Origin: Cliona cf. orientalis
Taxonomy: Eukaryota > Porifera > Demospongiae > Clionaida > Clionaidae
Length of the DNA: 64,000 bases
Assembly (NCBI GenBank): GCA_963930775.1
Contig: OZ005689.1
Coordinates: forward strand, 36,162,694-36,226,693
Reading direction: 5' to 3'
Shown here: positions 14,133 to 59,637 of the stretch, piece by piece
Layout of the letters: every line of letters begins with the position of its first letter
Position numbering within the stretch: position 1 is the first letter of the stretch
Translations under genes and position numbers: made by a program
The notes under the pieces: generated by a model
What the model saw: only the letters and a program-made list of their open reading frames with translations
The model's database searches: none
Told to the model about the DNA's origin: nothing

Positions 14133-14234
14133 TGGTGGTCACCTTGATGTAGTAACCTTTCTGGTTACTACCGGCCATGCTGATGTCAACTGCAAGAATA
14201 ATGAAGGAGAGACTCCATTGCACAAGGCTTGCGA
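14133..14234 (+). CDS. Ankyrin exon A
   Basis: Acceptor TCACTGCAG, donor GTGAGT. Encodes one repeat with 'GGHLDVVTFLVTTGHADVN' and 'EGETPLHKAC'. Its flanks are duplicated at 12440-12690 without the exon. Any exon upstream of it was not recognised. Confidence 0.85.
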
Positions 14235-20200: not shown

Positions 20201-23200
20201 CATGAACTATTACACGAACAGCATAATAGCTAATCACTTGTGTAGAATATCATATTTATTGGATGGGAGTTAAGAATACGAACACAATGTCATATTATTG
20301 ATGGAGATTAATGATTCAATGACATTACTACTCATTATTTCATAATTACCAGGTTCATACCCCTCTCCAATATTTATCTCAAATCCAGGTTGTGCATTGA
20401 AATAGACAATCTTAGTCAAACATACATGCATGCCCTATTGCTTCCACTTCAGAATTCATTATCTTCCCTTTTACTCACAGCCATACTAACCATGTAGGTC
20501 ATTGCTTGTTTTTAGATAATGAGAAGAATTATAGTGTAAATATTATTGTTTGCTGGGCAATATTCCATAAGATACTGTTTGCTCTATTTATCACTTGAGA
20601 GTAAATCTACTACAGCGAAGTTAGTGGTAGACTAAGTTGCAATTTCAAATTATCAGCTCTGTATGGCTATGAGTATAAGGGTAGATAGTGGCACAAATTT
20701 TCTGTGGTGAAGCCATGGCAATCATTGCATACATTTGCCAAGGTTTGTGATTGCAGACAGTTATAGCTATAGCTGTGTTTAATAAGTAGTTATCACATAT
20801 TGTTGATCATTGGTATATAATTGGTATCCAGTAAACCTAAAAAGTTGACTGCATCTCGTGCTCGCAGGAATGCTAGGCGCTTACAAGCCTTTCTGGAAAG
20901 AAAGCAGAGTGCACAGCCTGTTAGTGAGCGGATGGACCCGAATGAGCTGCAACCAGCTCCTTTGGATCACCAGACGGAGCAAGCTCATTTGGAACTTTTT
21001 GATGGCAACATTCAAGTTGATCAGGGCTCTAACCTAGCCTGCGAGCGATCCGATGTAGTTTTAAAGTCATTTATTGATAACAAAGTTCAGTGTGTTGATT
21101 TTCACCTTGATGGAGGGCCTGGGCTTGACTTGGAATTAAACTGTGGTGAAATAGTTAGGAGACCAATTGATGTTGCGAGACCAAATTCTGATGCCCAGCC
21201 TTTAAGTGGTGTTAGTCATAAACTGTCAGTGGAAGAGCTCATGAAGTTTGATGATATCGAGTTTGAAATGCGTGATGGTGATGGCTCTCCTGGGTTGTTA
21301 CTGAAGAAAGACAGTCATGTTACCTGGACTCCAATTGCCAGCAGGACTAGGTCTAGGTCTAGAGTCTCTTCTAAAGATTTATTATAATATAATACTGCTG
21401 CACCTTTTCAAATAATAATAATAATAATATTGTTTTACAGCATATCAAATAGCTAGCTAGCTAAGAGCAGAAGCTACCCAGCACGAATGAGATAGAGTAC
21501 AGATCAGGAGTGTGGGCTCAAGATTCAGCCTGAAGCTGTGATGAAAGTTGGACATAATTTGAAAGAGAGTTGCCAAGTTTCAGCTACAGTTGTTTTGTAG
21601 ATAATGATATATAGCACTGTGCTTATTAAACATTTACAATGGCATCACATAGCAGACATAATTATCAGTAACCTCATTTTAATAATATTATCATAGTGAT
21701 CGATGTTCAATACCAAAGCTCAGACACCTCTTTTGTCCTAGTTCCTACTCTGATACTTGGTCTGCTAAATGTCATAAAGTCTCTTCAAATTCTGCAGTAT
21801 TAAAAGTGAAGCAAATATAGCTCTACTCACAATTAAGCCTTTGAATGTCTGATGTATGTGTGATATGGGACCCCCCATGTCGGGTGTCCCCATTCATGTA
21901 ATACATGGATCAATTATATTTTATTTTTTTAGTGCAATAGCTAGCAGGGACCCCTCAGTACTGAAGACACCTACCGCTAGGCTAGCTAGCGAAATGGGGG
22001 TCGGATCTAGCACCTATTGTAGGAGCCATTTGGGAAGGGAGATAGTCTGGTGTGGCTGGAACGGCAGCTGCCAATATCTTTCCTATTAGTATACTGCTAA
22101 AGGCCAGCCTAGGCTACATATGAAGCCCAAAGAGGCACAATCTGGCCCATGGAAAAGGTAACACACCAAATAATAAATTATCCTTACATAAAGTGCCAAG
22201 GTACATGTACATACAGCATGAGGTTTAATAGCATTCAATATTGGAAGCTGAAAGACCCATTTTGTGCCCATAATATTTTTTTTTTCCCTCCTGCATCAGT
22301 TTGTGCTCGTCCTTCTTTTATTTGCTGCCACTGGCTAGCCATAATTCGATCGAGTAGAGAAGACCTGCATGTCTTGGGCACTGAATATAGGTCGTCACAA
22401 AACACACTCGGTGGGCGTGGTCATTCCACTATTCCATTCCATTCCATCGTTCAATTCCGCTGAATAAAGACACCCCATATAAAACTATATCATTGGTAGT
22501 ATTGAGCCCAGAATTATACACACCCTATGCTAGTATTGTATGGAATAATGCACTCTCGTGTAATCACATACAGTATTAGTAGGAGTATATTAACTGTAAC
22601 TTATAGCAGTGATTGTAATGACTACATATGTACTTGTCTGTTTATTTACACATTTCAGTTGGGGGAAACTGGATGTGGTGAAGTACCTGGTAACAAAGAC
22701 CAACTCCGATGTCAACTTAAAAACTAAAAATGGCAAGACTCCATTGGACCTTGCTCGAGGGTAAGCTTATACATAATGTATTCTTTCACGTACCATGTAC
22801 CATAGTGTTAATTAGTCACACTATTGCATGTGAATATTGGCATCCCAACCTGCATCAGTTTCTCTCCTGCTTGGCTTTAAAGTTTTGATTTCACAGCAGA
22901 AATGGTATTTTTCATGTTCACCAATAATTTTAATAGCTGTTTTTGTTAGTACATTTTTTTATATTTCTAGTGTGTGTTTGCATACCCTTTACGCATATCC
23001 CTGCTTCCTGTCACTGTTCTCATAACATTATTATTTTGGCCGTCACTAGAGGATGAGACGGTCGCAAAGCATAGTACACATGCTGGTTGTTGTTAAGCCT
23101 GCCATCCTATGTGTTAGGCCTGATGAGTAAGATACCATTGGGGACCATCCCCACTAATGAGGTGGGTTGTCTGTGATGGGCTGGCATATTATTTGTGATA

Positions 23201-30588: not shown

Positions 30589-31942
30589 ATGACTTTCCCT
30601 ATTAGAAAGTCTCATAGAGAGGAATATCGCAAAATTGTTTCATTTCTTGAAGAGCACCTTGACATTAAAAGTGATTCATCAGAGCCACAATCAGAAACAA
30701 GTGAGTATTTATAGTCATGGCTATTGTTACATTATGAAATATCCATAATAATAATGTGCAAGTTAGTTCTTGAGCAAATACTGGAAATAGAGAAAAAATG
30801 AACAGCTACAATAATAAAACATACTATGACAGTCATCAACATATAATTGTCGTGACTATAGCAATAATTAGTCCATTAACGTATAGTAATAGTTTCAACA
30901 AACAATAGAGAGAAGCCAATTGAATGTTTTGCACAAAATATATTAGACAATAATTATTGCAGTGTCCTGGGTGAGGTCCATGGGTACTCCACAGTAACTA
31001 AAGTTTTCACTATCTGAATTCTTAACTGGTACTAGGAGTGTATATACCTTGTGCCAATCAGTGAGTGGAGTTGATGTACAATCACAATCACGATAGTAAC
31101 TTTATCTCGATAGAGAATAAGGCACTAACTATTTCATCAAGTATAAGAACTACTTACACTAAATTGGTTACTAAGTCTCAAATCAGCTGTTGGTAATGCA
31201 TAAGGTCGATGCATCATGATTGAGCTAACTGTTGGCTACACTGCATGTAGCTATATATGTTGAGTGGAATATGATAGATACGATACTAGGCAATCAATAA
31301 GGGGTGAACCACAATAAGACATAATATGACTGCTAGCTCACATGAACATAAAAAGCCTGGACAAGCCTTCATGGAAAAACCATTACAATAAATTTCAAGT
31401 CCGAATCAACATAGGCAATTCAGCTTTGTACTGTACCATAGGTCGGGTTTTGAATGCGTAATTAAACAATTGCAAATGGTACTATATAATTTTCTGAAAA
31501 ATGTTTTCGTTGTTTATACCGTAGTGTACTGGGAAAGCACCCACTCCTGCATATTATAGCACATTTCAAGGGGTCAATGTAACAGCTTTTATACAAACGT
31601 ATGAAAACTTATATCTCGGGTAAGTGCCCATGCAGGCCAAAATCATGAGTTATGTTTAAGCGCCCATGGGCGCTTACCTGAGATACTACAGTAGTATAAC
31701 AATTTTAATCACAATGACTATCTATAAAATCATATCCCTAGATGTTCACCCACCCCTAACTGACAATGAGATGAGGATTCTCAAAATACTGCTGGCGGAG
31801 CACTTGGACCAACTTAATGAAAATGGTATCAGCCTCAACGTGGCTCTCTCTGGAGCATTGGTGCTATCGAAACAGAGCGTAGTTGAAGGTTTACACCACA
31901 TCGGACAAGTCAGCATGGCAAAGATTCTTGGCAATAAGCAAG
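30589..31942 (+). CDS. N-terminal exons 1-2 of the multidomain gene
   Basis: Exon 1 (30589-30700) encodes a charged helix ('REEYRKIVSFLEEHLDIK') and an acidic Ser-rich end. Exon 2 (31742-31942) encodes an all-helical 67-residue segment ('LTDNEMRILKILLAEHLDQL' and 'GLHHIGQVSMAKILGNKQ'). Size and amphipathic pattern would allow a small death-fold-like or other helical bundle, but no family was recognised. Both junctions are phase 1 and fit the FN3 exon. Confidence 0.6.
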
Positions 31943-34900
31943 GTAAGTTGTCACCCTCCACGACAAAACCATGCACTGGATATCAATCTGAGATACAGGC
32001 CAAAATAGTTGCCTAAGGTGATGATCCTCATTTTTGGTATGGATCGATAGGGAATCATTTGTAGCTTCTAAAATGCTATACATACCAAGTTATGACTCGA
32101 AGAATTTGGCCGTTTAGCCAACATTGACCGTCCATGATACGGCCATAGTTGCAGTTAGGCAAGCACAGCAGCTACAAAGTCTCCAGTAACTTATTTGTTT
32201 GATTTTGTGTACTAACGATCTATAGACATGCTTATCTTTTCTTTCCTTTCCATCGAAACGCCGGCTGCCGCTCTCTTTTAACGTTTTGGCATTGATTTAG
32301 TGTGTATGGCCATGTATTTTGCCTAAACAATGAGTATACCGACTTCCACGTTAGCAATGTTTCATCAGGCTTGCTGCAATTTTTTACAGAATCTGATGAT
32401 CTGGGTACATTTGGCTCATATCTCCATAACTACACACTTCAAATTTATAGGAGCAATAGTTCACAAGGTTATAGTTGATAATGGTGGCCTTATTAAAATC
32501 GATTGTCTGTGCAATATGGTTGGTTTTGTCATGGAAGATCATATTTAATAAGTAACAGTTATCTCATTAATCGGTGATAGGGGTATTAAAGTTTTATGTT
32601 GGCACACTGGACTCTTTAAAACACTCGCTATGTATGAGCCAAGGGTGTAGAAGTGTCCCTTAACTTTTTGAGAGAAAGTTTATTAATAGTAATTGTATAA
32701 GGCCGTTTATACACCTTGCCTCTATAACACTAACCCCTCGTGCTCGTCAACAACCGATCACCGAAACCCAAACCCATCATCAACAACCGATTACCGAAAC
32801 CCAAACCCCCGCTAGCCTACTAGTTGCATTTGCCATGTATTGCATCGCTCAGTAATAGCTTGTACTATATTATTATTAGCTACCTATACATCCCGTGAGC
32901 TATGCCAGTTCCTTAAGCCTTATACTTGGGTGCCAGTGCCGGTACTCTAGCCATAGCGATTGTATAATGAGGCAGTATGGTTCTTTAAGTTAAAAGGCTG
33001 CGCCCAGTTAGCTACTATTTAACACAAAGAAATATATATACCATAGAATCCCGCGATTACGCCCTGTAGTGTCGTGGTTAGTGAACGTCGCCGTTAGTGA
33101 AATGACAATTATGCGCATGCGCACGTGCGACCAACGCGGGTGCAATATTAACCCTATTAAAACTCCAAAGTCCGTATGTACGCGCTAGCAACCCGAATTC
33201 CCTGCGAGGGCGTGGTCTGGGGACTATACCAGTATCGCCGAGTATCGCGCCTATGTTTCTGAGTAAATCTAAGGATGGGCGCCTATAAAAGGCTCAGCTC
33301 AGAGTAAGCGTACTACCCCCAGGTTAGTCTCGAACTCAGACTCTGAGCGTGGGTTCGAGGCTACCCCCTGATAGGCCCTGCATGCATGCATGAAGTTTTT
33401 GTATAACTGTAATGCATAATTATTAATGCATAGCAGCAATAGTTATTCATCCGGCTCAAACGTAGCTATACAGATTAGGTGGTCAACTATCAAGTTCCCT
33501 ATAAGCCATTTATTGATGTTCACTAACTGCAGCAGCTTCAACAAAGGGGCTGTGGTTAGTGGAAACATTGATGAGACAAGCATAATCAGATGCAATGCTC
33601 GCTAGATAGGTGGTCGGCTATACATTATACATTTTAATGTTCACTAGTCTAACTGCAGCAGCTTCAACGAAGGGGCTGTGGTTAGTGGAAACATTTACGA
33701 GACAAGTATATTCATATGCAATGCTCATCATGTCAATTACATATAGATTAGGTGGTCAACTATGCACTATGAGCCATTTTGTTGATGTTCACTAACTGCG
33801 GCAGCTTCAACGAAGGGGCTGTGGTTAGTGGAAACATTTACGAGACAAGTATATTCATATGCAATGCTCATCAGGTCAATTGCATATATTAGATTAGGTG
33901 GTCACCTATGCACTATGAGCCATTTTGTTGATGTTCACTAACTGCGGCAGCTTCAACGAAGGGGCTGTGGTTAGTGGAAACATTGACGAGACAAGTATAA
34001 GCAGATGCAATGCTCATCAGGTCAATAGCATACAGATTAGATTAGGTGGTCACCTATGCACTATGAGCCATTTTGTTGATGTTCACTAACTGCGGCAGCT
34101 TCAACGAAGGGGCTGTGGTTAGTGGAAACATTGACGAGACAAGTATAAGCAGATGCAATGCTCATCAGGTCAATAGCATACAGATTAGGTGGTCACCTAT
34201 GCACTATGAGCCATTTTGTTGATGTTCACTAACTGCGGCAGCTTCAACGAAGGGGCTGTGGTTAGTGGAAACATTGACGAGACAAGTATAAGCAGATGCA
34301 ATGCTCATCAGGTCAATAGCATACAGATTAGGTGGTCACCTATGCACTATGAGCCATTTTGTTGATGTTCACTAACTGCGGCAGCTTCAACGAAGGGGCT
34401 GTGATTAGTGGAAACATTGACTAGACAAGTATAAGCAGATGCAATGCTCATCAGGTCAATAGCATACAGATTAGGTGGTCACCTATGCACTATGAGCCAT
34501 TTTGTTGATGTTCACTAACTGCGGCAGCTTCAACGAAGGGGCTGTGGTTAGTGGAAACATTGACGAGACAAGTATAAGCAGATGCAATGCTCATCAGGTC
34601 AATAGCATACAGATAAGGTGGTCACCTATGCACTATGAGCCATTTTGTTGATGTTCACTAACTGCGGCAGCTTCAACGAAGGGGCTGTGGTTAGTGGAAA
34701 CATTGACGAGACAAGTATAAGCAGATGCAATGCTCATCAGGTCAATAGCATACAGATTAGGTGGTCACCTATGCACTATGAGCCATTTTGTTGATGTTCA
34801 CTAACTGCGGCAGCTTCAACGAAGGGGCTGTGATTAGTGGAAACATTGACTAGACAAGTATAAGCAGATGCAATGCTCATCAGGTCAATAGCATACAGAT

Positions 34901-37900
34901 TAGGTGGTCACCTATGCACTATGAGCCATTTTGTTGATGTTCACTAACTGCGGCAGCTTCAACGAAGGGGCTGTGATTAGTGGAAACATTGACTAGACAA
35001 GTATAAGCAGATGCAATGCTCATCAGGTCAATTGCATACAGATTAGGTGGTCACCTATGCACTATGAGCATTATAATATTTATGAGCACTAACTGCGGCA
35101 GCTTCAACGAAGGGGCTGTGGTTAGTGGAAACATTGACGAGACAAGTATAAGCAGATGCAATGCTCATCAGGTCAATTGCATGTAGATTAGATGGTCACC
35201 TATGCACTATGAGCCATTTTGTTGATGTTCATGAACTGCGGCAGCTTCAACGAAGGGGCTGTGGTTAGTGGAAACATTGATGAGACAAGTATAATCAGAT
35301 GCAATACTCATCAGGCTCAAATGCATACAGATTAGGTGGTCAACTATGCACTATGAGTCATTAACTTATTGATGTTCACTAACTGCAGCAGCTTCAACGA
35401 AGGGGCTGTGGTTAGTGGAAACACTGATGAGACAAGTATAATCAGATGCAGTACTCACTACTATTAGGTCCAAAGTTGTAACAGATTAGCTAGGTGGCCA
35501 GCTATACAGTATGAGCCATTAATTTTTATTGATGTTCACTAACTGCGCCAGCTTCAACGAAGGGGCTGTGGTTAGTGGAAACACTGATGAGACAAGCATA
35601 ATCAGATGCAGTACTCACTACTAGTAGGTCCAAAGTTGTAACAGATTAGCTAGGTGGCCAGCTATGCAGTATGAGCCATTAATTTTTATTGATGTTCACT
35701 AACTGCGGCAGCTTCAACGAAGGGGCTGTGGTTAGTGGAACACTGATGAGACAAGTATAATCAGATGCAATGCTCATCAGGTTCAATGGCATACAGATTA
35801 GGTGGTCACCTATGCACTATGAGCCATTTCATTGATGTTCACTAATTGCGGCAGCTTCAACGAAGGGGCTGTGGTTAGTGGAAACACTGATGAGTCAAGC
35901 ATAATCAGATGCAGTACTCACTAGATGCAAAGTTGTAACAGATTAGGTGGTCAGCTATGCATTATGAGACATTTTATTGATGTTCACTAACTGCAACAGC
36001 TTTATTGAAGGGGCCGTGGTTAGTGGAAACACTGATGAGACAAGCATAACTAGATGCAGCACTCATTGGATGCAAAAGTTGTAACAGATTAGGTGATCAG
36101 CTATGCAAAATGAGCCATTTTATTGATGTTCACTAACTGCCGCAGCTTCAACGAAGGGGCTGTGGTTAGTGGAAACACTGATGAGTCAAGCATAATCAGA
36201 TGCAGTACTCACTAGATGCAAAGTTGTAACAGATTAGGTGGTCAGCTATGCATTATGAGACATTTTATTGATGTTCACTAACTGCAACAGCTTTATTGAA
36301 GGGGCCGTGGTTAGTGGAAACACTGATGAGACAAGCATAACTAGATGCAGCACTCATTGGATGCAAAAGTTGTAACAGATTAGGTGGTCAGCTATGCAAA
36401 ATGAGCCATATTATTATTGATGTTCACTAACTGCCGCAGCTTCAACGAAGGGGCTGTGGTTAGTGGAACACTGATGAGACAAGTATAATCAGATGCAATG
36501 CTCATCAGGTTCAATGGCATACAGATTAGGTGGTCACCTATGCACTATGAGCCATTTCATTGATGTTCACTAACTGCGGCAGCTTCAACGAAGGGGCTGT
36601 GGTTAGTGGAAACACTGATGAGTCAAGCATAATCAGATGCAGTACTCACTAGATGCAAAGTTGTAACAGATTAGGTGGTCAGCTATGCATTATGAGACAT
36701 TTTATTGATGTTCACTAACTGCAACAGCTTTATTGAAGGGGCCGTGGTTAGTGGAAACACTGATGAGACAAGCATAACTAGATGCAGGACTCATTTGATG
36801 CAAAAGTTGTAACAGATTAGGTGGTCAGCTATGCAAAATGAGCCATATTATTATTGATGTTCACTAACTGCCGCAGCTTCAACGAAGGGGCTGTGGTTAG
36901 TGGAAACACTGATGAGACAAGCATAATCAGATGCAGTACTCACTACTAGTAGGTCCAAAGTTGTAACAGATTAGCTAGGTGGCCAGCTATACAGTATGAG
37001 CCATTAATTTCTATTGATGTTCACTTAATGCCGCAGCTTCAACGAAGGGGCCGTGGTTAGTGGAAACACTGATAGATTCCTAGCATCAGAACGATTGATT
37101 TTGACCAAAAATAGTATAGTATTATTATTATTATAGCTAACAAACTTGAAAATAAACGTCCAAAAAATTAATAATAATAATGTGTGATCAATAATAATAT
37201 TATTCTGCATTAAGTATAACTATGCTTTCTCTAAAAGATGCGTGTATAATAATGAGGTAACAGCTCTTAATCACCGTTACAGGCACAAATCAATCAATTT
37301 TAAACTAAATATTGAAAGGTCTATCGTTAAGCGACCTCATAAATCTTTAGTTTAAAACACTCATAGCCCAATATTTATGCCATTTAAAAGTCTGCACTCA
37401 AGAGCTTGACTGGTAAATCTTCAGCAGCTTTATGTCAACATCATGTATACAAATGTTGCATAGTTGTCAATAATCCCCAAAATTTAATGTTCAAGTATGC
37501 ATAAAATATTATTGTTGTATGCAGTTCTTTACCATTGCCCTCCTCCCACTGGGCTGAATGTCACTCATGAGCTTCCAACCTCAGCAGAGATTTCCTGGAA
37601 AACTTTACCAGAAGGAGAACAGAGCACTGTCATCACTGGATACTCTGTGCAGGTGGTTGGGGCTGGCTCAACACGTGAAATTTCAGTTTCAGATGCAAGA
37701 ACTACATCTGCTGCAGTATCAAAGCTAAGACCTTCTACGTCATACACCTTCAATATTAGTGCTGTGACACACACTGGGAATGGACCGATTGCAACTATTA
37801 CATCCACAACACCTGAAGAAGGTGAGCCTGCTAAGTATAAGTGAGGATATTTCTTTCTTCTTGTTAAGTGCGGGATGCAGTGTGTGAACACCAATAATAA

Positions 37901-40900
37901 TGATGCCAGGAGTCGTGCAGCAGTTAGGGTTCTGCACTCCAGTGTATTAGTGACGTTAACGGCCTTTAGCTCCACTTGTTGCACCCTCAAGTCTAAACCA
38001 AAACATCTATTGATGAATATCTAGAGCTGTTCTTTTATGATGCCTAAGTTTCCAAGCGCTTGCATATTAACGGTTTGTGTTGAAAAGAATAATTACCGCA
38101 CATAAATTTTATTGTACATTAATTTTATTATTCTAAATCTGTATTTTTATTCACACATGTATGTGTTCGTCATTCACAGCCTACTAAAGTATAATAATTA
38201 TCATACATATGCACTCACATTTAATTTTAGAATCAATAAAGTCAAGCCTATCATCAATTCCTTCAGTTCAGGTAAAAAACATATTATATTTTAATCAATG
38301 CCACACCCAAGTATTCCAATAATGATCACATTTTATCCTCTGCAGTGTCCTGTGTGTCGGAATGTTCTAATCGACCCCTGCACACTGCAGTGTGGTCATA
38401 CCACCTGTCAGCTGTGCTTGGCAAAGATGTGGGAGCACAATGATACAATGTGTCCCCTATGTAAGGAGCCATGGCAAGTACTTCCTTCAATCACCATTGA
38501 CCTCAGGTAACTAAAGAATAACTATTATTGCTACTCTTTTATTTTGAATAATAATTCATGTTCCTAGAGATAATATTGCAAGTGCTCACAGTGATGAAGT
38601 AGCTCTGTTAAAGAGTCAGTATTCCGATGAAGAAAAGAAAGCAATTGAAAAATTTTTGCAAGCAAAGAGAACTTTAAGACAAGAAAATATACAAAATGGT
38701 CAACACAAAGGAACTGGTAAGATAATAATCATAGAATCGGTAGACTCTATAAGTAGGGATGGCACGGATACTCCATATATGTAATACATTATAAATATCA
38801 AAATATCTCAAAACAGGTAAGTTTATGAGATTTCTAAGTGTTAAAATCAGAATCTACAGCAAATTATCTATCTAACAAGACCAAGATCATTCATCAATTC
38901 CATTGTGTATGCCAGAACCAGATGTTCAAAAAAATAGCCATTTCTCAATCTTTCTTTCTTTCTGTTTTCCTGGGCTAACTCAAGACTGCCTTGATCGCTC
39001 ACCTTAGTTCGAGTATAAATCCACTTCATTTTGGAGCGCGCACGTCTGTGGCACGCTCATTTTGTGTTATCAGGACAAGCGATTTAATTGTGGGTGTATC
39101 TGATTAGCCATTTTGTCATATAGTGCGCATGCTCATACGGCGTTGCCATGGTGAAGTCATGTGACCGATGTCAGTAGCGCGCATGCGCCGGGACCTGCTC
39201 GAGCGCTCAAGCGCTCAGCTCGACGCTCAGAGCTGATCGATCAGCTCAGATTATGGTGGCTACTACCAACAGTAAACTTACTGGCCTATAAGATACGCTC
39301 CCGAAACAGAAGATTTTCGTCACTACTTGGTTCTAAACGGCCTTCTTTCAACTTCACGGTCAGCCAGCTTCAGGATCGAGATAACGAGGGGCGTGGTTTC
39401 ATTCGCAGGTCAGTTTAGCTGGTTACCTCGAGAATCCCACTGATGTATGTTCAATAGTGTGTTATGCAAAAGAAGACGTCCTAGCTAGCTATCACACGAC
39501 TGCCTGAGATTTGCACTTACAGGAATATTCAAGTTTGAAATCAATGTGTGTTGTGGTCACCATAGCTCAGGCCTGACACAAAGGCTAGGATCACATAAAC
39601 ATGCTTAATCAGTGGTCCAGGTGTACCTACTTCCCTATAATATTGTATTATTGTTGGAGCACAGTTGGATGTAGCTTGGTCCAGAAAAAAAACTAGTTCT
39701 AAGCATTTATAAATAACAATGAATACGCAAACCATAATATCAGGTCACCATGGCATGTAGAGTGTATGTAGAGTTTCATGCCCGGCCTCTGTCCCCACGA
39801 GATTAGACAGCTAGGTGGCATTGATGAAATTAATGACAATCATAAACTACCCCGAGGGCTCTAAAAAAAAGAACAGTAACAAGTATAAAAAGCAATTGAA
39901 TAAAATTGAAGGATGAAGTAGGGATGGCAGTGCCAAAAAGTACACAAACAAGATTTGTAGGGACAAAGTATCACATCCACTATACATCCCTACGCTTGCT
40001 TTTCTCGATAATTAATATCATACACTTCTGATTCAGAATGTAAAGTATTGCTATCCATGGGTTTAGTACGGTGGCCCAGAAGGGCCATGTCCATTACCCG
40101 ATACAATATTTCCCATTACCAATTTCGACTTTTCTCATTACCAGCTTCCAATTTGGTTATTTCTCGTTTCCAATTTTGAGTTTTCTCATTACCAACTTCC
40201 AATTTGGTTATTTCTCATTTCCGATTTTGAGTTTTCTCATTATACTAGCTAACTTCCAATTTGGGTTTTTCTCATTTCTGTTATTAACTGGGATATTTCA
40301 ATGTGGATTCTCTTTGCAAGTATAATTAACTATCATAGGCGCCAGTTGTATGCATGTGCCATGTGCTCTGATCCACATTAATTTTGTGCAACATGGAGGC
40401 TACATGTTAGTCTTGTGCCCAGCCCCCTTCGTGCATGCAACAGTGAAGGGGGCTGGGCACAAGACTAGTGATATGTCTAGCTAAACCTCCGTAGACCTTT
40501 TTTATACGATGACTGTTTAGCGTCATTATAATAATAATTATGATGTTAAGGGGGAAGAGGTTGAGAGTCAGTGCCTGTCAGGTATGACAACAGCATGGCC
40601 TTTGGAGCCACCCACACCCCTCTATGCTTAAATTGCATTACAGGTGTGTGGCTCCATGACTGCCATGACGCTAACTTAAAGGGGGAGAGGAGAGGGTGTC
40701 CAAGATTTAATTTCATAATGATATTAGTGCCCCCTTAATCAAGGGTAATTCAGAAAGTTGTCAGAAGAAAAGGGTCTTTAGGTAGCTATAACATAGGCAG
40801 TACTGTGTGACCTCAGCCATAGGGTAGCTATACTGTATAAATAGTATTTAACGACCAGTTTCCGCCTTCAACGCATACCTGTCCACCCTCTCTTGTGTAC

Positions 40901-43900
40901 ACGCCTATCAATACTATGATCAGGCCCGTAGCCAGACGTTTTAAAAGGGGGGTGCACGTGTGTATGGGTTTAATTACTATAATGTACTCGCAGGGTTGGG
41001 ATGTTAACTCACAGCTGCTCAGTCACATGACAATCACAGAAGTAATTATACATGTATTGGTCACAACTGCTTATTGATTGAGGTGTGACGTTAATTAGCT
41101 GCACTAAGTGTGGTTTTGTCAAGCTGATAGAGAGGATAGCATGCAGCCTCAGTCTATTGCTCATGCAATTAAGAACTTATGTGAAATGACATGCAATTAT
41201 TAGGCTGAAAAAGCGGGGTGCACGTGCGCCCCCCTGCACCCCCCCCTGCCTACGGGCCTGATGATACTTCACTAACCCCGCAAAGAGTACCTACCCAAAT
41301 TGAAATAATTTTCCAAGTTAGTTATAAAACGAGAAAATTGGAAATTGGAAATAAGAAACACCCAAATTAGAAGTTAGTAATGAGAAAACTCAAAATTGGA
41401 AATGAGAAATAACCAAATTGGAAGCTGGTAATGAGAAAAGTTGAAATTGGTAATGAGAAATATTGTATTGGGTAATGGACATGGCCCTTCTGGGCCACCG
41501 TAGTTTACGGTATTGATTTCCATTCCTGCATGTGCCCCATATATTATAATAATATTGTGTGTGTGCACGGCTACTCAAAAAGCAAGCGTAGGGATGTATA
41601 GTGGATGTGATACTTTGTCCCTACAAATCTTGTTTGTGTACTTTTTGGCACTGCCATCCCTACTTCATCCTTCAATTTTATTCAATTGCTTTTTATACTT
41701 GTAATATATCAATCATGCTATGATAGACTATTATCTAGCTGCACCATATCCTATAAAATTTGAATTTATATTCTAACCAATACCTTTTTTATGCATAAAC
41801 AGAACTACTGATAACAGAGCAACCACAAAGCAACACAAGCATAAAGTATGGGGAACATATTAGTCTATCTGTGTCAGCTACTGGAGCAGAGAGTCTGGTT
41901 TACGTATGGAAGAAAAACAGAGAAGATCTGACCGGCCATGGCAATCACTATATTGGAACTAATACACCTACTCTAATAATTAGTGAATTTTTTCCAGATG
42001 ACCAAGGTAAATATGTCTGCATTGTCAAGAATTGCAACAGCTCTATTGAGTCAGAGCCAGCTGACCTGAAACTAGGTACCTTAATCTCAATTGAACTACT
42101 ACAAGACAGAATATTATTGTCCAATACACTACAGATTTCCAGGTCTTTGAGCACCCAAAGAGCACAGGCTGTGACTACCATGCTCCAGTGTCTCTGACGG
42201 TGTCAGCTGTTGGGCCAGGACCCTTAACTTACCGATGGAGAAGAGGGAGAGCTGTCATAGATGATGAAGATTGCACAGGAGTTGATGAAGCAACCCTCAC
42301 TATCAGATCCTTCTCACAAAGACACGAAGGGGACTACTCGTGTCAAGTCAAATGTAATAAAAATTCAGTTGAGTCACATCCTGCTAAACTGGAATTAAGT
42401 GAGTAACAAATATGCTGTACCCACATATTATATTATTGGCGGGGAAAATATAATGGTTAAATATTTTGTTCTATAATTATGCAGATTTTCAGATAATTGA
42501 GCAACCGGAAGAAGAATTGTTTGCTAGCTGTGGTGAGAGTGTGATTATACATGTATCTGCTGTTGGATCAGGACAACTCTTGTATGAATGGAAGAAAAAT
42601 CAAAAAGAAATAATAGATCGTGATCATTATGATGGAATTGAAACAGCAGCTCTAACTATTACCTCCTTTTCAGACATAATATGTCAGGGAGAATACTCGT
42701 GCATCGTGAAGAATAATCATGATGTAACAATTGAATCAAAGCATGCAAAAGTCGAATTAAGTAAGTGAATCTGAACAATAATATTATATCCAGTTTAGTG
42801 AAATACACCGCTAGCTGCATTCATAATAATTTCTCTAAATATCTAATTTTACGTAGAGCTACAGATGATAGACCATCCGAAAGGGAACACAAGCATACAG
42901 AATGGTGAAGATGTGACACAGACTGTATCAGCTGTTGGACCACAACACCTAACTTATCGGTGGATGAAAGACGGACAGGAACTTCACAGTGCAGAGGATG
43001 CTGGCAAACTAACTATACCTTCATTTTCCTCTGAGAAGGAAGGATACTACTCATGCATCATCAGTAGTAGTCTGCAATCTGTTAAATCCAAGCCTGTTTT
43101 ATTGGGATTAGGTACACTGGAATTAACTACATGGGACCACTGGGGATTTTCATATAATTAGGCATGGATTAGGTGACTGAGCACATGCTCAGTACAATAC
43201 CATACCCATTGGATGTGTTGTTGCTCGAACCTGACCGACCCAGTCATTTATCTGTGTATCAATACATAGTACGCATGCATGCTTAGGTGTAAAGGCCTTT
43301 TGATACTGTCATAACTTTTTTAAACACTGAATGACGATTTTAATATCATTTTTGGCTGCAGTGTGGAAATTACCTGGTGTGGAAGAGTGTGGTGAAACAG
43401 ATGTGGTTGTACACTCTTTTCAAGGTCAGCTTGTCGAGTGGAATGGCTTAAAGCTTCAGATCCATGCAGGCAGCTTACCAGAAGACGTACAGCAATGTAC
43501 CGTTTTCATCAAAGCTTCTCTTGCTGGGGAGTATGAGTTCCCTGAGAACACTAGTCTAGTCAGTGCCATCTATTGGCTGCGCTGTGTGCCACAGCGTACC
43601 TTCATTAAACCTATCACAGTTGAGATCCAGCATTGCAGTACTAAACGGGACCCCTCTAAGCTTAAAATAGTACGAGCATTTTGTAGTCAGAAGTCCCTCC
43701 CCTACAAGTTCAAATCGTTGGGAGGTAGCTTCAATGCTGACACATTTTATGGAGTTATAGATATGAAAGGTTTCTCTGGAGTTGGTGCAATTGAAGAGGA
43801 TCCAGATTCAGAGAGAATGTACTACAATCAGCTATTCTACCGTAGTCTCAGCCATCAGCAGAGGCACGAGATTCACATAATTTTCACTTGGAACACTGAA

Positions 43901-46900
43901 TTACATCTAAATGTAATGCAGTCATTCTCTGTATGTATAATCATGCTTACTGCCAGTAATCTTTGTGCACTTGCAGCATGTAAGCCAGAAATACCCTGAG
44001 GATAGTTTCCTTGCTGGCTGCCACAGGGTCATTGAGATAGAAGGGAAAGAAATTGAGGTAGCACTTGACATAGCAAACTGGACCACAGTGATGAATGGTC
44101 AGTGGGAGATTCATCCAGCTCAACCAATGGTATGTATAATTAATTTATAAAAATTAAATTGTATTGCTATATATACGTAGGTGACCAAAGCTGAGCTTGA
44201 TGACTTTAAACCGGGTAGAGGGTTACCTGGCTGTGTACTGGAGGCACGCCCTCTCTGTGAAGATTTCCCTCAACTTTTACACCAGGTCATCCTCAATGGG
44301 ATTAGGTCACCACATCACAAAGTTGTTCTATCTTACAATGTCATGCCTTCAAGAGGTAAGAGGTACAGTCAATCTTTTAAGATGGCATTGTTATATTTAT
44401 TTGTGATGCACACAGATTATTCAAGTGGTGCGGCTACTCCCAGAACTACACAGCATCAGTTAAGCTCTTCTACGATTGGACAAAAAGCAAAAATCGGTAG
44501 ATCATAACTAGTCGCATCATGTGTGAACACGTGATGCACACACCATACACAGTGTATTGAAGGCATATCACCTGCTTAATTTACCCATTGTGTCAAGATT
44601 GTGAGCACACGCTCCTTAATGAACCAATTATTAGTAGATGAATTAGCTTAACATTCAAAGTAAGAAATTGAATTTCCAGAGGGGAAGATGACCACATCGA
44701 AGGAAATTCTGTACTAAAGGCTTGTTGGGCCAATATTCCTTATACCTTATGCCTTATGCATGTATACTCGGGAGAACACTGTACTACACACATGACAGAT
44801 TATTATTTCATCTCAACAATCAATAAATGTTTGTAGATCAACATAGTGACCCTTCTGATGTACCTTCAGCCACACATAATCTGACATTTAGCAGTTCCAT
44901 GCCTGATGAAGATTTTTTTAAGTGGCTTAGATCAAAGGGAATAAGTGATAAAGACTGTAAGACTCTCTCTGGTAAGTACAAACTGTCACTGACTACTATT
45001 TCATGAATATTGCCATCACAAGTAGTGTTTTTCTTGATTCCCTGTAGATAGTGGTATATCTTCTTCTGGGTTTCTTCTGTGTGATGTGGAGGATTTTGAC
45101 GGACTAACTAAATTTGGAAAGAAACAGATTTTAAAGATTTCTATGGAAGTTAAAGGTATAGTTAATCTCAGGTCAAGTCTATCTGCATGATAATTAGTGA
45201 TTCATAATAATCGTGACACATAGCTAGTACATTATCGTGATTTTGTCCACTCTTATACACACAGGCGAACATTCTGATCAACAGCCTTCAGAAAGAGACT
45301 GTTCCTATGTGGGATCAAGGTGTCACGCACCTCAGCATTCCAGTCAAGCGGAGGGAAGAGATCAACACACAGTCACTGGTAAACTGGAGTAGTTACATCA
45401 TGTATACACCCCTGGCACATACATTGCACCAATGATGCTTGCAGCATACACAAGTACATCTCAGTGCATTTAAAGCATGTCACCTGCTAAATTTACCCAT
45501 TAATTTTTGTCAAGATTGTGAACACAAAATCCCCAATGAAGAAATTAGGAGGATGAGCTAGAAGAAAGTTAGAAATTGAGTTTTCCAGAGGAGAAGATCA
45601 CTATGAAAATAATAAACATGGTCTAAATTTTTGTCAATGAATGAATTCTGTAGTTGAAGATTTACTTACTGGAGCCATTGAGTCACATAAGGCTGTCTAT
45701 AAGAGTATGTCTGCAAATGCATTTTAAGAATGCCTCTTATTAACAAATTTCATTACGAGTGCCTTTTATCAACAGCTGGTATATATTATCAGCAGCCTGT
45801 ATACTATTAAATTTTATGCTTTTTCTCATACTACATGCAATCCAAAGAAAGAAACTACTAGCTAGCAGGCACACAGTCAAAAGCTATTGAAAGCAACTTC
45901 ATATTCGAAGGTCAACTTTTCATGTGTCACTTGCCAGGAGTAAGTCAGGAACGACACCATTGCGTCTTTGCCTTTAATCTGACCCCCTCCCCTTGAGGAT
46001 CTCTGAGGCTATAATTTGCTTGCTGAGGCATAATTTAATAATAGTCTTATGTGTACATTTTAGTGCATTGAGCATAATTCTATAATAATAGGCTCAGCCT
46101 TTTAAAGCATATTTCTATACTACTAGGCTACCCAAGCATAATTCTAGAAGAGCTAATAGGTTCAAATTTACCCATTTGAAGGTGTGCTTAGGGAACTTGG
46201 GTGTAGTGAACTTGACTCAATACCAATTGTGGCATTCATTCTTTAGGCCACTCCAAGTGGTATACCGGTTTCTGGTCAGGTCCCAAGTTAAGAGGAGGGA
46301 GCGCGGGTTAAGCCATTATGTCATTACCAACTTAATGCGGAAGAAGACCACAAAAATTCAAGCTGCATTTTAATACGCATGTGTTTTAATCATCAAAATC
46401 AACGCAACAGGTTGGTTGGATATCACAGCTGTTCAATATAAAAACAGATATTATAATATAATTGTGAAAAATCAGCCTTAACACGTAGATTCAGCTAGAT
46501 CAGCAAGGATACAAAGCTTACCTTCGAGGCTGACAGCAGTACAAAGGGGATGTGGCCGATGTTTTTCGCATGCGCAGAAGGAATAATGGCCAGAAAGTGT
46601 AGCTATCTTCCTGAGATTGATGCGGGCGGCAGACCAGAAACCGGGATACTACTTGGAGTGGCCTTATGGCAGTTACACAACAAACATAATATTATTGCTA
46701 TATTGATTAGTGACAATGCAAACAAAACAAGTGTATACTATTACCGTACCCTCATGAAAGAGGCCCCATGGGCGGTGCACCTTACATTGGGCCAAGATTG
46801 GGGGATGGGACGATATTCGAGGTATCATGTCACGTTTATACGCGAAAGAGCGCCCAGGTAAGTTACCCACGCTGGCTTCATAATTTTGAACAGTAGTTGC

Positions 46901-48382
46901 GGCTACTATTAATTTCAGCCTTATTCAAGCACGGTTACCAAACCAAAGCAAGGGCGGCCACGATACTTCACTGTGTGTCGTTGAGTGCAGCCGTATTAAG
47001 TGGGCGTGGCTATGATCACTAGCCGTGTACGATCGTTTATTTGTGCTGAAACGTGGCATAAAGCTAGCTAGGCTTAGTTTTACAGCTGTTCAGCACGTTA
47101 TTTATCGATCTTACATAGGCTATTCGAAGTTCAGTTCTCATAAACCAGCCGTTTGAGCTGCGTTTTCAAGGGCAAGTACACATGGGCGCATATTCGAGTA
47201 AACACTAGACCTTACTGCAGACTGTCCAACCGTCCCGATATTGTCGGGACAGTACCGATTTGAAGGCTTGGGTCCCGAATCCCGCTTAAACCTTAGCCAG
47301 AACAACGAATGTCTCGCGATCGGATTGGCGCGGATAGCTCGAGTATACATGCATCACGATGCTAGCAATTATTGAACTACAATGGGCGTGGCGATGTAAG
47401 CTCAGCGATCGCGCGAGCTAATAAGCTCGCGCGAGTGCTCAATAATAGTGCTAGGCGCTAGGATATAGATAGCCTCGTGCCCAAAGGGCCTGGGCACGAG
47501 GCTAGGATATAGACTAAGACGTATACGCTGCGCTCGCGCACGATTGCATAGTATATACAGCTAGACCACTTGATGCTTTTTGACATATTAAGTTTCTTTA
47601 CTGTTACAGTATTAAAGTACTAAAACTGAGTGAGAATTGCATTAAGTGTACCCCTAGGCCCTAGAGTCTAAACTTTTAATTGAAGGCGTGGCTTAAAATT
47701 AAGCCACACCTTCAATTAAGAAGCCTGCGTCTTCAATGTCCCTACTTGTGTCATTCTCAAGGTTGGACAGTCAGGCTTAGCAGGAAATTGAGCCCAAAGT
47801 GGGGGGTGGGCCGACATTCCGTAGTGGGGCCTCTTTCGCGAAGGTACGGTAATGGGCTTTTCCATTTAATAGCCATACACCCCCATGGAAGAGCCATAAT
47901 TACATCTGAGGGGTCTAAATTTATTAATAATTATCACTTGATTACATTAATTTATTGTAATAGGTATATTGCATTGTCGGCCACAAGAACATCAATTGGA
48001 TCTGGGTCTAAATTTATTAATAATTATCACTTGATTACATTAATTTATTGTAATAGATATTGGAGATATATTGCATTGTCGGCCACAAGAACATCAGTTG
48101 GATCTTGTTGAAGAAAATGGAAAGGAAGTTAGGGTGATTAAAGCGATAGCATCAAGGTGGCAGGACGTGGCTACAAGGCTGCACTTTGACCTTAATGATA
48201 TCAAATGTATTAAGAGAGATAATCATCACGAAAGTAAACCATCCTGTCATGAGATGTTGAGCCTGTGGCTGAATGGCAAAGGTCGACAGCCTGCTGATTG
48301 GGAAACATTGATCAAGGCTCTCAAGGAGGCTGAATTTTCTGAACTCGCAAAGGAATTGCAAACTAGCTATACTTTTATCTAG
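30589..48382 (+). CDS. FN3-RING-Ig(4)-ZU5-SAM-like-Death domain protein
   Basis: Eighteen exons: 30589-30700, 31742-31942, 37525-37821, 38231-38271, 38346-38506, 38568-38716, 41803-42075, 42135-42398, 42485-42760, 42857-43111, 43362-43912, 43977-44129, 44181-44355, 44416-44496, 44837-44971, 45048-45155, 45265-45378, 48057-48382. All donors are GT and acceptors AG; every junction keeps phase; the total is 3,672 bases (1,223 codons plus TAG). The start ATG has an in-frame TAA directly upstream. Approximate residues: N-terminal region 1-104, FN3 108-203, RING 218-265, Ig domains 321-676, ZU5 677-860, UPA-like 861-969, SAM-like about 1020-1077, Death about 1130-1215. No signal peptide or membrane segment is visible, so a cytosolic adaptor or E3 ligase is inferred, with the Death domain as signalling output. 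UNC5 and ankyrin proteins share ZU5-UPA-Death; MALT1 shares this kind of Ig. Unseen small exons or a wrong fusion of two genes remain possible, most likely across the 5.6-kb second intron. Confidence 0.75.
31517..31693. mobile_element. Possible MITE just upstream of exon 2
   Basis: TACCGTAGTGTACTGGGAAAGCACCCA at the left and, complemented, TACTGTAGTATCTCAGGTAAGCGCCCA at the right: imperfect inverted ends of about 27 bases around a 177-base unit that ends 48 bases before exon 2. Written motifs are abbreviated by position; see 31517-31543 and 31667-31693. Confidence 0.5.
31943..33429. other. Intron 2, 5' part, no gene seen
   Basis: No exon recognised. It holds a short direct repeat at about 32750-32815 ('accgaaacccaaaccc' twice) and an imperfect inverted repeat at 33317-33371 (tctcgaac and gttcgagg). 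A missing exon in this stretch cannot be excluded. Confidence 0.4.
33430..37072 (+). repeat. Satellite array of 25 units with hairpin core, in intron 2
   Basis: Twenty-five tandem units, mostly 143 bases (core starts at 34084, 34227, 34370, 34513, 34656, 34799, 34942 are spaced exactly 143), with longer and shorter variants at the ends. Each unit has a core beginning CACTAACTGCGGCAG and ending GGGGCTGTGGTTAGTG, about 41 bases, that can fold: CACTAAC pairs with GTTAGTG, CAG with CTG and CTTC with GAAG around an AAC loop. The core is more constant than the spacer. The middle units (34.1-35.0 kb) are almost identical; units at 35.7-36.9 kb form a two- to three-unit higher-order repeat. No coding frame runs through the array. 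Confidence 0.92.
37525..37821 (+). CDS. Fibronectin type III domain exon
   Basis: A single 99-codon phase 1-1 exon, the classic module unit. It shows 'PPTGLNVTHELPTSAEISWK' (A and B strands with the conserved Trp), 'VITGYSVQVVG' (C strand with Tyr), 'LRPSTSYTFNISAVT' (the L-x-P-x-T-x-Y-x-F signature) and 'GNGPIATITSTTPEE' (G strand). Confidence 0.9.
38346..38506 (+). CDS. RING finger exon
   Basis: C3HC4-type RING: 'CPVC', then 11 residues to 'CTLQCGHTTCQLC', then 'MWEHNDTMCPLCKEPW'. All eight zinc ligands are present (Cys pairs CPVC and CPLC, the C-x-H, and the C-x-x-C). Such domains recruit E2 enzymes, so ubiquitin-ligase activity is a reasonable prediction. The following exon 38568-38716 is a charged helical linker. 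The RING sits between FN3 and Ig domains, an uncommon order. Confidence 0.9.
38727..39200 (+). mobile_element. Non-autonomous element related to the 15.6-kb palindrome
   Basis: Shares in order with 50270-50790: 'gtagactctataagtaggga', a 'tatgccagaa' block, 'gagtataaatcc' or its variant, 'gccattttgtcatat' and 'gttgccatggtgaagtc'. The later half also matches 15770-16000 ('gagtataaatccact', 'aattgtgggtgt', 'atggtgaagtcatgtgac'). It lies in the intron between the RING linker exon and the first Ig exon. Confidence 0.75.
40408..40467. repeat. Perfect 23-base-arm hairpin
   Basis: TAGTCTTGTGCCCAGCCCCC plus TTC is exactly complementary to GAAGGGGGCTGGGCACAAGACTA with a 14-base loop. Its arms share the core TAGYCTYGTGCCC with the hairpin at 47470-47504. 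Confidence 0.85.
40921..41260. mobile_element. hAT-like MITE nested in the inverted-repeat element
   Basis: A 340-base unit with ends CAGGCCCGTAGCCAG and CTGCCTACGGGCCTG. The CAGG...CCTG ends are of hAT type. Subterminal G- and C-runs with 'gggtgcacgtg' extend the inverted match. It lies in the loop of the larger element and is therefore younger. Confidence 0.75.
41803..43111 (+). CDS. Four Ig domains, one per exon
   Basis: Exons 41803-42075, 42135-42398, 42485-42760 and 42857-43111, each phase 1-1 and separated by introns of 59-96 bases. Each has a C-strand Trp ('YVWKK', 'YRWRR', 'YEWKK', 'YRWMK') and an F-strand 'YVC' or 'YSC'. The B-strand cysteine is replaced by valine in all four ('LSVSATG', 'LTVSAVG', 'IHVSAVG', 'QTVSAVG'), so no canonical disulfide can form. 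That pattern is known for Ig domains of cytosolic proteins such as MALT1. Confidence 0.88.
43362..44355 (+). CDS. ZU5 domain and UPA-like region
   Basis: Exon 43362-43912 begins 'VWKLPGVEECGETDVVVHSF' and has 'GQLVEWNGLKLQIHAGSLP', the ZU5 pattern of G-x-L, a short strand and L-x-I-x-x-G-x-L, then 'SLVSAIYWLRCVPQRTFIKP', the usual L-x-S/x-P-x-x-x-F-x-x-P block. The next exons 43977-44129 and 44181-44355 encode a beta-rich segment ('HRVIEIEGKEIEVALDIANW', 'FKPGRGLPG', 'SPHHKVVLSYN') in the place of a UPA domain, as in UNC5 and PIDD proteins. The UPA call is by position and strand pattern. Confidence 0.75.
44416..45378 (+). CDS. Linker exons with a SAM-like helical domain
   Basis: 44416-44496 is a Ser/Thr-rich linker. 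44837-44971 and 45048-45155 together encode 'MPDEDFFKWLRSKGISDKDC', 'SGISSSGFLLCDVEDFDGL' and 'KKQILKISMEV', a W-L...G-I...L/F...D-L...G-K-x-x-I-L pattern typical of SAM domains. 45265-45378 is a polar, His/Gln-rich linker. All junctions are phase 1. Confidence 0.6.
44530..44710 (+). repeat. Interspersed repeat, partial copy
   Basis: 'atcacctgc', 'aatttacccatt', 'gtcaagattgtga' and 'gaaattgaatttccagaggg' match 45440-45600 in order. Confidence 0.65.
45430..46190 (+). repeat. Interspersed repeat, long copy 1
   Basis: Collinear with 58380-59370: 'catgtcacctgc', 'gttagaaattgagttttcca', 'ctaaatttttgtca', 'gaattctgtagttgaaga', 'aagaatgcctcttatt', 'gagtgccttttat'. A partial third copy lies at about 44530-44710. 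These two copies occupy introns of the multidomain gene. Confidence 0.8.
46244..46666. mobile_element. Harbinger-like MITE, TTA target duplication
   Basis: Inverted ends of about 30 bases: the left starts GGCCACTCCAAGTGGTATAC and the right is its near complement, ending CTTGGAGTGGCC. Both ends are flanked by TTA, matching the 3-base TWA target of PIF/Harbinger transposases. A small ORF inside (46550 onward) has no recognisable domain. Confidence 0.75.
47470..47504. repeat. Perfect 13-base-arm hairpin
   Basis: TAGCCTCGTGCCC and GGGCACGAGGCTA around a 9-base loop, inside the TACCGTACC element. Confidence 0.8.
47676..47719. repeat. 44-base palindrome
   Basis: TTAATTGAAGGCGTGGCTTA and TAAGCCACACCTTCAATTAA with a 4-base centre; one mismatch in the arms. 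Inside the TACCGTACC element. Confidence 0.8.
47912..48109 (+). repeat. 93-base tandem duplication over the Death-domain splice acceptor
   Basis: The block from GGTCTAAATTTATTAATAAT to 'acatcaattggatct' is repeated at 48005, with 12 extra bases in the second copy. Each copy contains the branch/poly-pyrimidine region, a TTATTGTAATAG acceptor and the first Death-exon codons. The second copy leads into the Death domain; the first runs into a TGA within the duplicated intron text. Confidence 0.9.
48057..48382 (+). CDS. C-terminal Death domain exon
   Basis: Acceptor TTATTGTAATAG. Encodes 'IKAIASRWQDVATRLHFDLN', 'IKCIKRDNHHESKPSCHEML' and 'LWLNGKGRQPADWETLIKAL', with W-x-x-L-A/V in helix 1, the I-x-x-I in helix 2 to 3, the L-x-x-W-L helix 4 and T-x-x-x-L-x-x-A-L helix 5 of Death domains, then 'LAKELQ' and TAG. 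The acceptor and first 14 codons are duplicated just upstream (47912-48109). Confidence 0.88.
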
Positions 48383-58379: not shown

Positions 58380-59370
58380 CATACATGAGAACACCTCAGT
58401 GCATTTAAACCATGTCACCTGCCCATTTTGCGAATACAAAATCCTCAAGGAACACATTAGGAGATAAGCCATCAAAGTTAGAAATTAAATTTTCCAGAGG
58501 AGAAGAATAGTATACTGTAAGAACACTTTTGTTTGAGGGTACTAAATTTAGTGAAATTAGCGATTTACCCAATTTTTGAAAATATTGTACCTGCTAATAT
58601 CAACATTATCGAGTAATTTTGAAAACTTGCTAAAATAAGTACCTGCTAAACGCACTATTTCCAAAATCCACTAAAATTTATATCCGCAAATAATCATTAC
58701 CAAAAGGTAGGTGTTCTAAATTTTTGTCAGTAAATAAATTCTGTAGTTGAAGAGGTACTTGCTAGGGCCACTGAGTCACATGAGGCTGTACATGTCTATA
58801 AGAGTACGTCTGCAAAAGCATGTAATTAAGAATGCCTCTTATTGACCAATTTTATTACAAGTGCCTTTTATTGACACTAGGTATATATTATTGGTAGCCT
58901 ATGTATTTCTTAATTATGCTCTGTGTTTATAGTACATGCAATCCAATAAGCAAGACACTACTAGCTACCAGGTGCATAGTCAAAACCTTTTGAAGCAACT
59001 TTATATGCAAAAATGACCCATTTTCATTTTTCATGCATGTAGCTATCACTTTCCAGGAGTGATTCAGGAACGACACCATCGTTCACATCTTTTACCCTAT
59101 AGTGAGTTGGCTTTGCCTTTAATCAAAACTATTATTGTATAGAATAGAATTGCTGTGTGTAAGAATGCATACAGATGCCTTTATGGGATGCTCTAAGCTA
59201 ATCTTTAATTTTGGATTATACATTTTGGTGGCATTGTGATACTATATGGCATTGAGTATAATTCTAGAATAAAAGGCTCAGTCCTTTCAAGTATAATTGT
59301 ACTGTAATAGGCTTCCTATTCAAAGCATAATTCTAGAATAATAGGCTCACCCATTTAAAGGTGCGGTTCA
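58380..59370 (+). repeat. Interspersed repeat, long copy 2 with insertion
   Basis: Diverged duplicate of 45430-46190. Relative to that copy it carries about 200 extra bases at about 58511-58710 (starting 'tactgtaagaacacttttg'), a probable younger insertion. Confidence 0.75.
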
Positions 59371-59637
59371 GGAACTTGATCCAACCGTATTCATTCTTCC
59401 TAGAGTTACACAATAGCAACCAGCCTATATTCATGCAGCACCTTTCTGCTACTGGCCACCAACCACAATTTGGTTACTAATAATTAACCAATGCATGTGC
59501 CAATTTGTATTGTTGGTCTATTAGATATGCATATAACTGCTAAATGGCTAGTGAAGTTGTACTACTAGGCTTTACTTGTAGGCTTCCTCCCCATGACCAC
59601 ACTTATGCACACAATACCTCGTATTATTTACTTTTGT

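Follow-up and report, generated by a model that had tools for sequence, protein, structure and literature searches.

The locus described here is, on balance, probably an intact-looking derivative of a duplicated family of cytosolic proteins with an ankyrin-Roc-COR-RING-ZU5-SAM-Death plan, one that has lost its Roc-COR part and carries a Death domain of the type belonging to other Roco genes. It lies in a window (the whole stretch of DNA that was analysed) of 64,000 nucleotides from the sponge Cliona cf. orientalis, and the gene is a member of a large family, partly arranged in tandem and partly dispersed, rather than a lone oddity. The many-domain protein is best read as the product of one gene that starts upstream with ankyrin repeats. 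As paralogues carry this series of exons in an unchanged order, and as dN/dS against one of these (copy B) is 0.30 (0.23-0.39; 593 codons), the exon set of the window is beyond what chance would assemble.

Gene model and domain content

The preliminary description had proposed a single frame of 18 exons at 30589-48382 on the plus strand. Rebuilt exon by exon, this model comprises 3,672 nt including the stop and encodes exactly the 1,223 aa claimed, with no internal stop, GT-AG borders at all 17 introns and phases that agree; the frame stands, whereas its 5' end does not. Exon 1 is preceded by an acceptor AG at 30604-30605 in phase 2 and is therefore an internal exon, and its homologue in copy B has the acceptor and lacks a Met at the equivalent place. 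A gene start at ATG 30589 is thus ruled out by the preceding acceptor, by the Met absent in copy B and by ankyrin exons upstream. Five of these, each of 102 nt and phase 2-2, lie in the window at 14133-22760, and one further ankyrin exon and a start exon (C1:36154876-36155012, 7.8 kb outside) precede it, placing the predicted start about 38 kb upstream of the one first proposed. The joined repeats match Ank_2 in Pfam with an E of 2.5e-52.

The extended model runs from ATG to stop over 24 exons and 56 kb, giving 1,429 aa with no stop or frameshift; its 5' end is predicted, and still farther upstream are another ankyrin exon and another start-like exon, which could represent an alternative start or a separate gene. 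Exon 17 is omitted from this model. It is 114 nt long and of phase 1-1, such that skipping it keeps the frame; it is absent from the models of copies B and D, and in copy A the frame first proposed contains a stop, another frame being the conserved one. Its coding in the original frame is doubtful. The parts of the locus are collected in Table 1.

Table 1. Features of the locus, in window coordinates
Feature	Position	Strand	Basis
Ankyrin-repeat exon, 102 nt, phase 2-2	14133..14234	+	Pfam Ank families on joined repeats
Ankyrin-repeat exon, 102 nt, phase 2-2	14817..14918	+	Pfam Ank families on joined repeats
Ankyrin-repeat exon, 102 nt, phase 2-2	17793..17894	+	Pfam Ank; similar repeat in copy B
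Ankyrin-repeat exon, 102 nt, phase 2-2	19152..19253	+	Pfam Ank; similar repeat in copy B
Last ankyrin-repeat exon, 102 nt, phase 2-2	22659..22760	+	Pfam Ank; similar repeat in copy B
Linker exon after ankyrin repeats (exon 1 of the 18-exon model)	30606..30700	+	Acceptor 30604-30605, phase 2, frame checked
Helical module (exon 2 of the 18-exon model)	31742..31942	+	34 genome matches
143-bp tandem array, in the intron that holds Roc-COR in most relatives	33649..37073	.	Repeat analysis
FN3 exon	37525..37821	+	Pfam; 94% identical in copy A, 90% in copy B
Small linker exon 4	38231..38271	+	14 aa identical in copy A
RING exon	38346..38506	+	Complete C3HC4 ligand set
Helical exon 6, after RING	38568..38716	+	Present in copies A, B
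Insertion in intron 6; inverted-repeat arms 39879-40003, 41578-41702	38738..41694	.	Absent from copy A
Ig 1	41803..42075	+	Pfam; copy A
Ig 2	42135..42398	+	Pfam; copy A
Ig 3	42485..42760	+	Pfam; copy A
Ig 4	42857..43111	+	Pfam; copy A
ZU5 exon (exon 11) and start of next region	43362..43912	+	Pfam ZU5 E 0.02; similarity via relatives
Exon 12, conserved segment following ZU5, in the UPA position	43977..44129	+	Copies A, B, D
Exon 13, conserved segment following ZU5, in the UPA position	44181..44355	+	Copies A, B, D
Linker exon 14	44416..44496	+	Homologues in copies A, B
SAM domain, first half (exon 15)	44837..44971	+	91% in copy A; profile comparison
SAM domain, second half (exon 16)	45048..45155	+	95% in copy A; profile comparison
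Exon 17 of the 18-exon model, doubtful	45265..45378	+	Stop in the original frame in copy A
Terminal Death exon with stop codon	48057..48382	+	Pfam Death

The domain string first proposed was FN3, RING, four Ig, ZU5, SAM-like and Death. Pfam analysis of the joined 1,223-aa frame recovers fn3 at 111-198 (E 3e-13), a RING of type zf-C3HC4 at 218-256 (E 4e-7, above the cut-off) whose C3HC4 zinc ligands are complete, four Ig stretches (best Ig_3 E 7e-35) and Death at 1145-1218 (E 1e-10). ZU5 stays below the cut-off, as it does in copy B, and neither SAM nor UPA finds a Pfam match in that frame. The putative ZU5 and SAM assignments instead draw on relatives, which support both: exons at C12:6460217, C7:1088245, C1:9578360 and C11:9129493, all of which pass the ZU5 cut-off, share 53-55% identity with the ZU5 exon, and a profile comparison of exons 15-16 with the SAM exons of paralogues, two of which pass the SAM_2 cut-off, gives a probability of 95 over 43 columns. 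Exons 12-13, which occupy the UPA position, are conserved in copies A, B and D and have no match in Pfam or the PDB. The helical module is all helix in a structure model made from the single sequence, with low confidence.

The paralogue family and its Roc-COR exon

Three relatives are most informative for the window gene. Copy A (L039 and L041) is a tandem copy about 97 kb upstream, in which FN3, FN3, exon 4, RING, exon 6, four Ig and ZU5 follow in this order with a DNA identity to the window of 91-96%. In copy B, about 140 kb downstream, the helical module is followed in turn by FN3, RING, exon 6, ZU5 and exons 12-14, with no Ig between exon 6 and ZU5; with chosen splice sites this copy yields one open frame of 1,950 aa that holds ankyrin, Roc-COR, Ig, SAM, FN3, RING, ZU5, two SAM and a Death-type exon, the poor FN3-RING junction of this model being due to omission of the small exon 4. 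Copy D (L040) is compact and places a FYVE finger (E 2e-8) before the helical module, followed by Roc-COR, Ig, SAM, RING, ZU5, two SAM pairs and a terminal Death exon that passes the Pfam cut-off. The plan of the family is ankyrin, helical module, Roc-COR GTPase, Ig, SAM, (FN3), RING, (Ig in varying number), ZU5, SAM and Death. There is also a partial copy, consisting of two ankyrin exons (L025:8116 and L026:3031), a FYVE exon (L026:6763-6906) and the helical module (L026:6969-7172), with no match to Roc-COR, RING or ZU5 before the ankyrin exons of copy B.

Searched exon by exon, the genome gives 34 matches to the helical module, 63 to RING, 115 to ZU5, 60 to the Roc piece, 64 to Ig and 154 to FN3. 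RING loci were counted from the 34 of 63 RING matches that start at query residue 1 with E <= 2e-8, and exon order was scored with 34 of 34 helical-module, 38 of 115 ZU5, 32 of 60 Roc, 45 of 64 Ig and 10 of 154 FN3 matches. Among the matches included, the helical module lies upstream at 25 of the 34 RING loci, Roc-COR upstream at 27 and ZU5 downstream at 26, and 20 loci carry the helical module, Roc-COR, RING and ZU5 in order on one strand. How many Ig exons separate RING from the next part differs from locus to locus, with none found in many loci and 2, 4 or 6-11 in others; three similar copies at C1 12.19-12.48 Mb have 6-11 Ig exons after RING and a Death exon of the copy B type, with no ZU5 match within 6 kb. 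Many copies, spread over several contigs, share 80-92% identity and a low dS in their ZU5 exon, and neighbouring exons differ far more, a pattern that reads as exon-wise homogenisation.

The Roc-COR part is seen in copy B as a 770-aa exon between the helical module and FN3, which matches COR-A and Roc below the respective cut-offs. For COR-A, copies B and D score 24.4 and 28.9 bits, and the relative at C1:12200353 reaches 36.2 bits against a cut-off of 35.3; for Roc, the scores are 17.8 (copy B) and 20.6 bits (copy D) against a cut-off of 27. The copy B exon contains GVPRTGKTT, DVGGQ and THVD, which we take to be GTPase motifs. Roc-piece identity is 81-100% among copies on C1 and C6 and about 64% in D-type copies. 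By the Roc-COR tandem, as read from sequence, the paralogues qualify as Roco proteins. In the window, by contrast, the Roc piece has no match and the 770-aa Roc-COR frame has none by tblastn, and the window gene, lacking the tandem, falls outside the Roco proteins. Among the matches included, 21 loci have the helical module, RING and ZU5, and of these the window alone has no Roc-COR; compared with copy A, it is also without the N-terminal Ig and SAM exons, one FN3 (the second) and one SAM. The Roc-COR exon has probably been lost together with the adjoining Ig, SAM and second FN3 exons, plus one more SAM.

In the genome at large, 150 of 290 COR-A candidates were scored and, among the matches listed, all but the last three are above the Pfam cut-off. 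This expansion is well above the 9-47 ROCO genes of brown algae given in the available text of PMC11378527, with the COR-A matches counted exon-wise, such that broken or allelic copies may be included.

Intactness of the locus and alternative readings

A serious rival to a functional gene, albeit an unlikely one, is a copy in decay, which would have arisen by recent duplication, lost Roc-COR and begun to drift, with its frame open only due to the short time elapsed. The exons of copy A missing from the window (Roc-COR, N-terminal Ig and SAM, one FN3 and one SAM) fit such decay, as do the 3.4-kb tandem array and the 2,957-bp insertion in the introns and the state of the neighbouring copy A, which is broken by two stops in Roc-COR, one in Ig 2 and a frameshift in ZU5, and has its Death exon on the opposite strand. 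A branch split with copy B as outgroup (515 codons) assigns 13 synonymous and 22 replacement changes to the window and 18 and 29 to copy A, with 7 ambiguous (Fisher p 1.0); as copy A is broken, there is no sign of added constraint on the window after the two diverged. What speaks against decay is that the 24 exons are free of stops and frameshifts, compared to at least four lesions in copy A over a similar length, that the RING ligands are complete, and that the pairwise dN/dS against copy A is 0.40 (0.26-0.59; 790 codons). Against copy D, dN/dS is 0.25 (0.18-0.33; 453 codons). The dS against copy B differs strongly from exon to exon (FN3 0.18, RING 0.20, ZU5 0.16, helical module 1.37, exon 12 1.63), indicating gene conversion among the copies and weakening any dating. 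The inverted repeats of the intron-6 insertion are 100% complementary, and the element is therefore probably young. We consider it fairly likely that the window copy makes a working protein at all.

The Death exon raises a separate question, as it could belong elsewhere, with the gene ending earlier or with an unseen exon, which we judge to be quite improbable. It lies 2.7 kb from exon 17 with repeats between, a 93-bp local duplication of the acceptor region (47911-48105) occurs at its 5' edge, the Death exon of copy A is inverted, and its type differs from the one usual in the family. That usual type, the copy B Death exon (>=47% identity, <=13 kb, same strand; 41 of 150 matches used), occurs at 20 of the 34 RING loci and not in the window; in copy B itself the exon has no Pfam Death match. 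Relatives of the window exon reach 50-52% identity; a COR-A domain precedes 6 of the best 30 by 0.66-0.99 kb, which assigns the window's Death type to other Roco genes. Its place at the end of the window gene is favoured by its phase-1 acceptor, which fits exon 14 or 16 just as the Death-type exon of copy B fits exon 14, by its strand, shared with the other exons, and by the last position of the Death-type exon in copies B and D. Window segments 45605-46160 and 58708-59478 are both similar to a dispersed repeat, L041 868-1639.

It is very unlikely that the Roc-COR exon is real and was merely lost from the assembly through misassembly of the tandem array at 33649-37073. The array does occupy the intron that holds Roc-COR in most relatives, here the one separating exons 2 and 3, but copy A's Ig, SAM and second FN3 exons have no counterpart in the window either, and a single collapsed repeat would therefore need to hide about 4 kb. 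The array holds about 23 copies of its 143-bp unit, a 33-base piece of which has no copy in the 41 loci examined.

Two separate genes, FN3-RING and Ig-ZU5-Death, as the 3.1-kb window intron between the RING side and the Ig exons might suggest, can be rejected as extremely improbable, because the gap from exon 6 to the first Ig exon is 151 bp in copy A and that from exon 6 to ZU5 about 450 bp in copy B, the long intron 6 of the window being the 2,957-bp insertion (38738-41694) missing in copy A, and Ig exons 7-9 hold no in-frame Met. The single frame from FN3 through RING, Ig, ZU5 and SAM to Death, as initially described, is upheld by this spacing and by the ZU5 exon found within 6 kb downstream on the same strand at 26 of the 34 RING loci.

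Predicted function and known systems

The first description placed the protein in the cytosol, and the sequence supports this location. The predicted 1,429-aa frame has no membrane helix (top 19-residue hydropathy 1.35) and no signal-like start, and all four Ig domains have Val at the canonical position of the first Cys of extracellular Ig domains, with the second Cys kept. A secreted or membrane Ig receptor is ruled out by the hydropathy and the absent first cysteines. Most likely, the window protein is a cytosolic ubiquitin ligase or scaffold with a Death-domain output and without a GTPase switch, and it may have ligase activity and an immune or cell-death role. The ankyrin, FN3 and disulphide-free Ig domains would bind a partner in the cytosol, and the SAM, ZU5 and Death domains would bring about self-assembly and the recruitment of Death-domain partners, after which the RING could ubiquitinate either the bound molecule or the assembled complex. 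Where relatives have Roc-COR, this process would be under the control of a nucleotide switch; without it, the window protein might be an always-on adaptor, or a partner or decoy of its full-length relatives.

A broader and tentative suggestion, which we hold to be somewhat doubtful, is that the family plays in an animal the part of NLR-type intracellular immune receptors. It would be a Roco family that shuffles its parts fast, with ankyrin repeats, 0 to about 11 disulphide-free cytosolic Ig domains between RING and the next part, a built-in RING ligase and exchangeable Death exons around a Roc-COR switch, and its switch-less members, such as the window gene, would act as helpers or decoys. If the family is read correctly here, single polypeptides of one animal genome would combine three signalling logics that are usually found in different proteins (the GTPase switch of Roco proteins, ubiquitin ligation and Death-domain scaffolding), with the recognition part varied through exon gain and loss. 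The window copy would then represent a stage in which the switch is gone and the ligase and Death output are retained, and the family would offer a testable case of early animals building intracellular immune or cell-death receptors without NLR parts.

Several known proteins share parts of this architecture. Canonical ankyrins consist of ankyrin repeats, a ZU5 pair, UPA and Death; the window protein likewise has ankyrin repeats, then a putative ZU5, then Death, and by sequence its C-terminal part is matched best in the PDB by the Death domain of ankyrin-1 (E 0.009), but it has few repeats, one ZU5 exon and no UPA match, with RING, FN3, Ig and SAM between, and its relatives carry Roc-COR. UNC5 and PIDD have ZU5 followed by Death, UNC5 also with Ig, and the ZU5 of PIDD carries an HFS autocleavage motif. 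The window protein, with its putative ZU5, shares the ZU5-Death order with both and Ig with UNC5, while it lacks the membrane helix and thrombospondin repeat of UNC5 and the LRR and HFS motif of PIDD; its 1,429-aa frame contains no HFS and one GFS. Cytosolic Ig together with Death recalls MALT1, a chain of which is matched by the window Ig part (E 1e-5), but there is no Pfam match to a caspase-like domain, Death stands last, and FN3, RING and ankyrin repeats are present. Among solved structures the window RING is closest to that of TRIM21 (E 9e-9); unlike in TRIM proteins, it is not N-terminal, and the joined frame has no B-box match at E up to 1.

Among Roco proteins, DAPK1 carries ankyrin repeats. 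Its group (group 3 Roco) is described in the available part of PMC6337361 as having a Death domain and a kinase before Roc-COR. The family plan of ankyrin, Roc-COR and C-terminal Death resembles DAPK1. The C-terminal Death domain of this group is found by Pfam in the window protein as well; the window gene model has neither a kinase, its start exon being of the ankyrin type, nor Roc-COR, and the family adds FN3, RING, Ig, ZU5 and SAM. The brown-algal ROCO genes, which undergo exon shuffling, are proposed immune receptors and are said in the same partial text (PMC11378527) to exceed those reported in other organisms, likewise form an expanded Roco family, but there the LRR is variable, whereas here ankyrin, Ig, SAM and Death exons vary. 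The text also gives Trichoplax at least 17 ROCO genes with LRR, TPR, CARD and Death (PMC11378527). The actiniarian NG3, with kinase, Roc/COR, Death and TIR, likewise combines Roc-COR with Death in an early-branching animal, but with other partner domains, RING, Ig and ZU5 going unmentioned in the portion of PMC5094078 available. In the parts of PMC8195603 available, bacterial AP-GTPase-COR conflict systems have variable ends and another Death-linked family is expanded in the sponge Amphimedon; the sponge NLR repertoire is treated in PMC12909245, likewise available in part. The domain arrangement of the window gene and its family is not described in the accessible portions of PMC6337361, PMC11378527, PMC8195603, PMC5094078 and PMC12909245.

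In practice, an unexpected single gene from an intron-rich genome is best judged by comparison with its tandem copies, from which exon boundaries can be settled and a false start, a questionable exon and missing parts can be recognised. Elsewhere in the window, open frames on the minus strand at 1214-2039 contain a 60-bp tandem repeat encoding a 20-residue repeat, and an SRCR domain exon (Pfam E 1e-6) at 63040-63285 marks the start of another gene or gene part.
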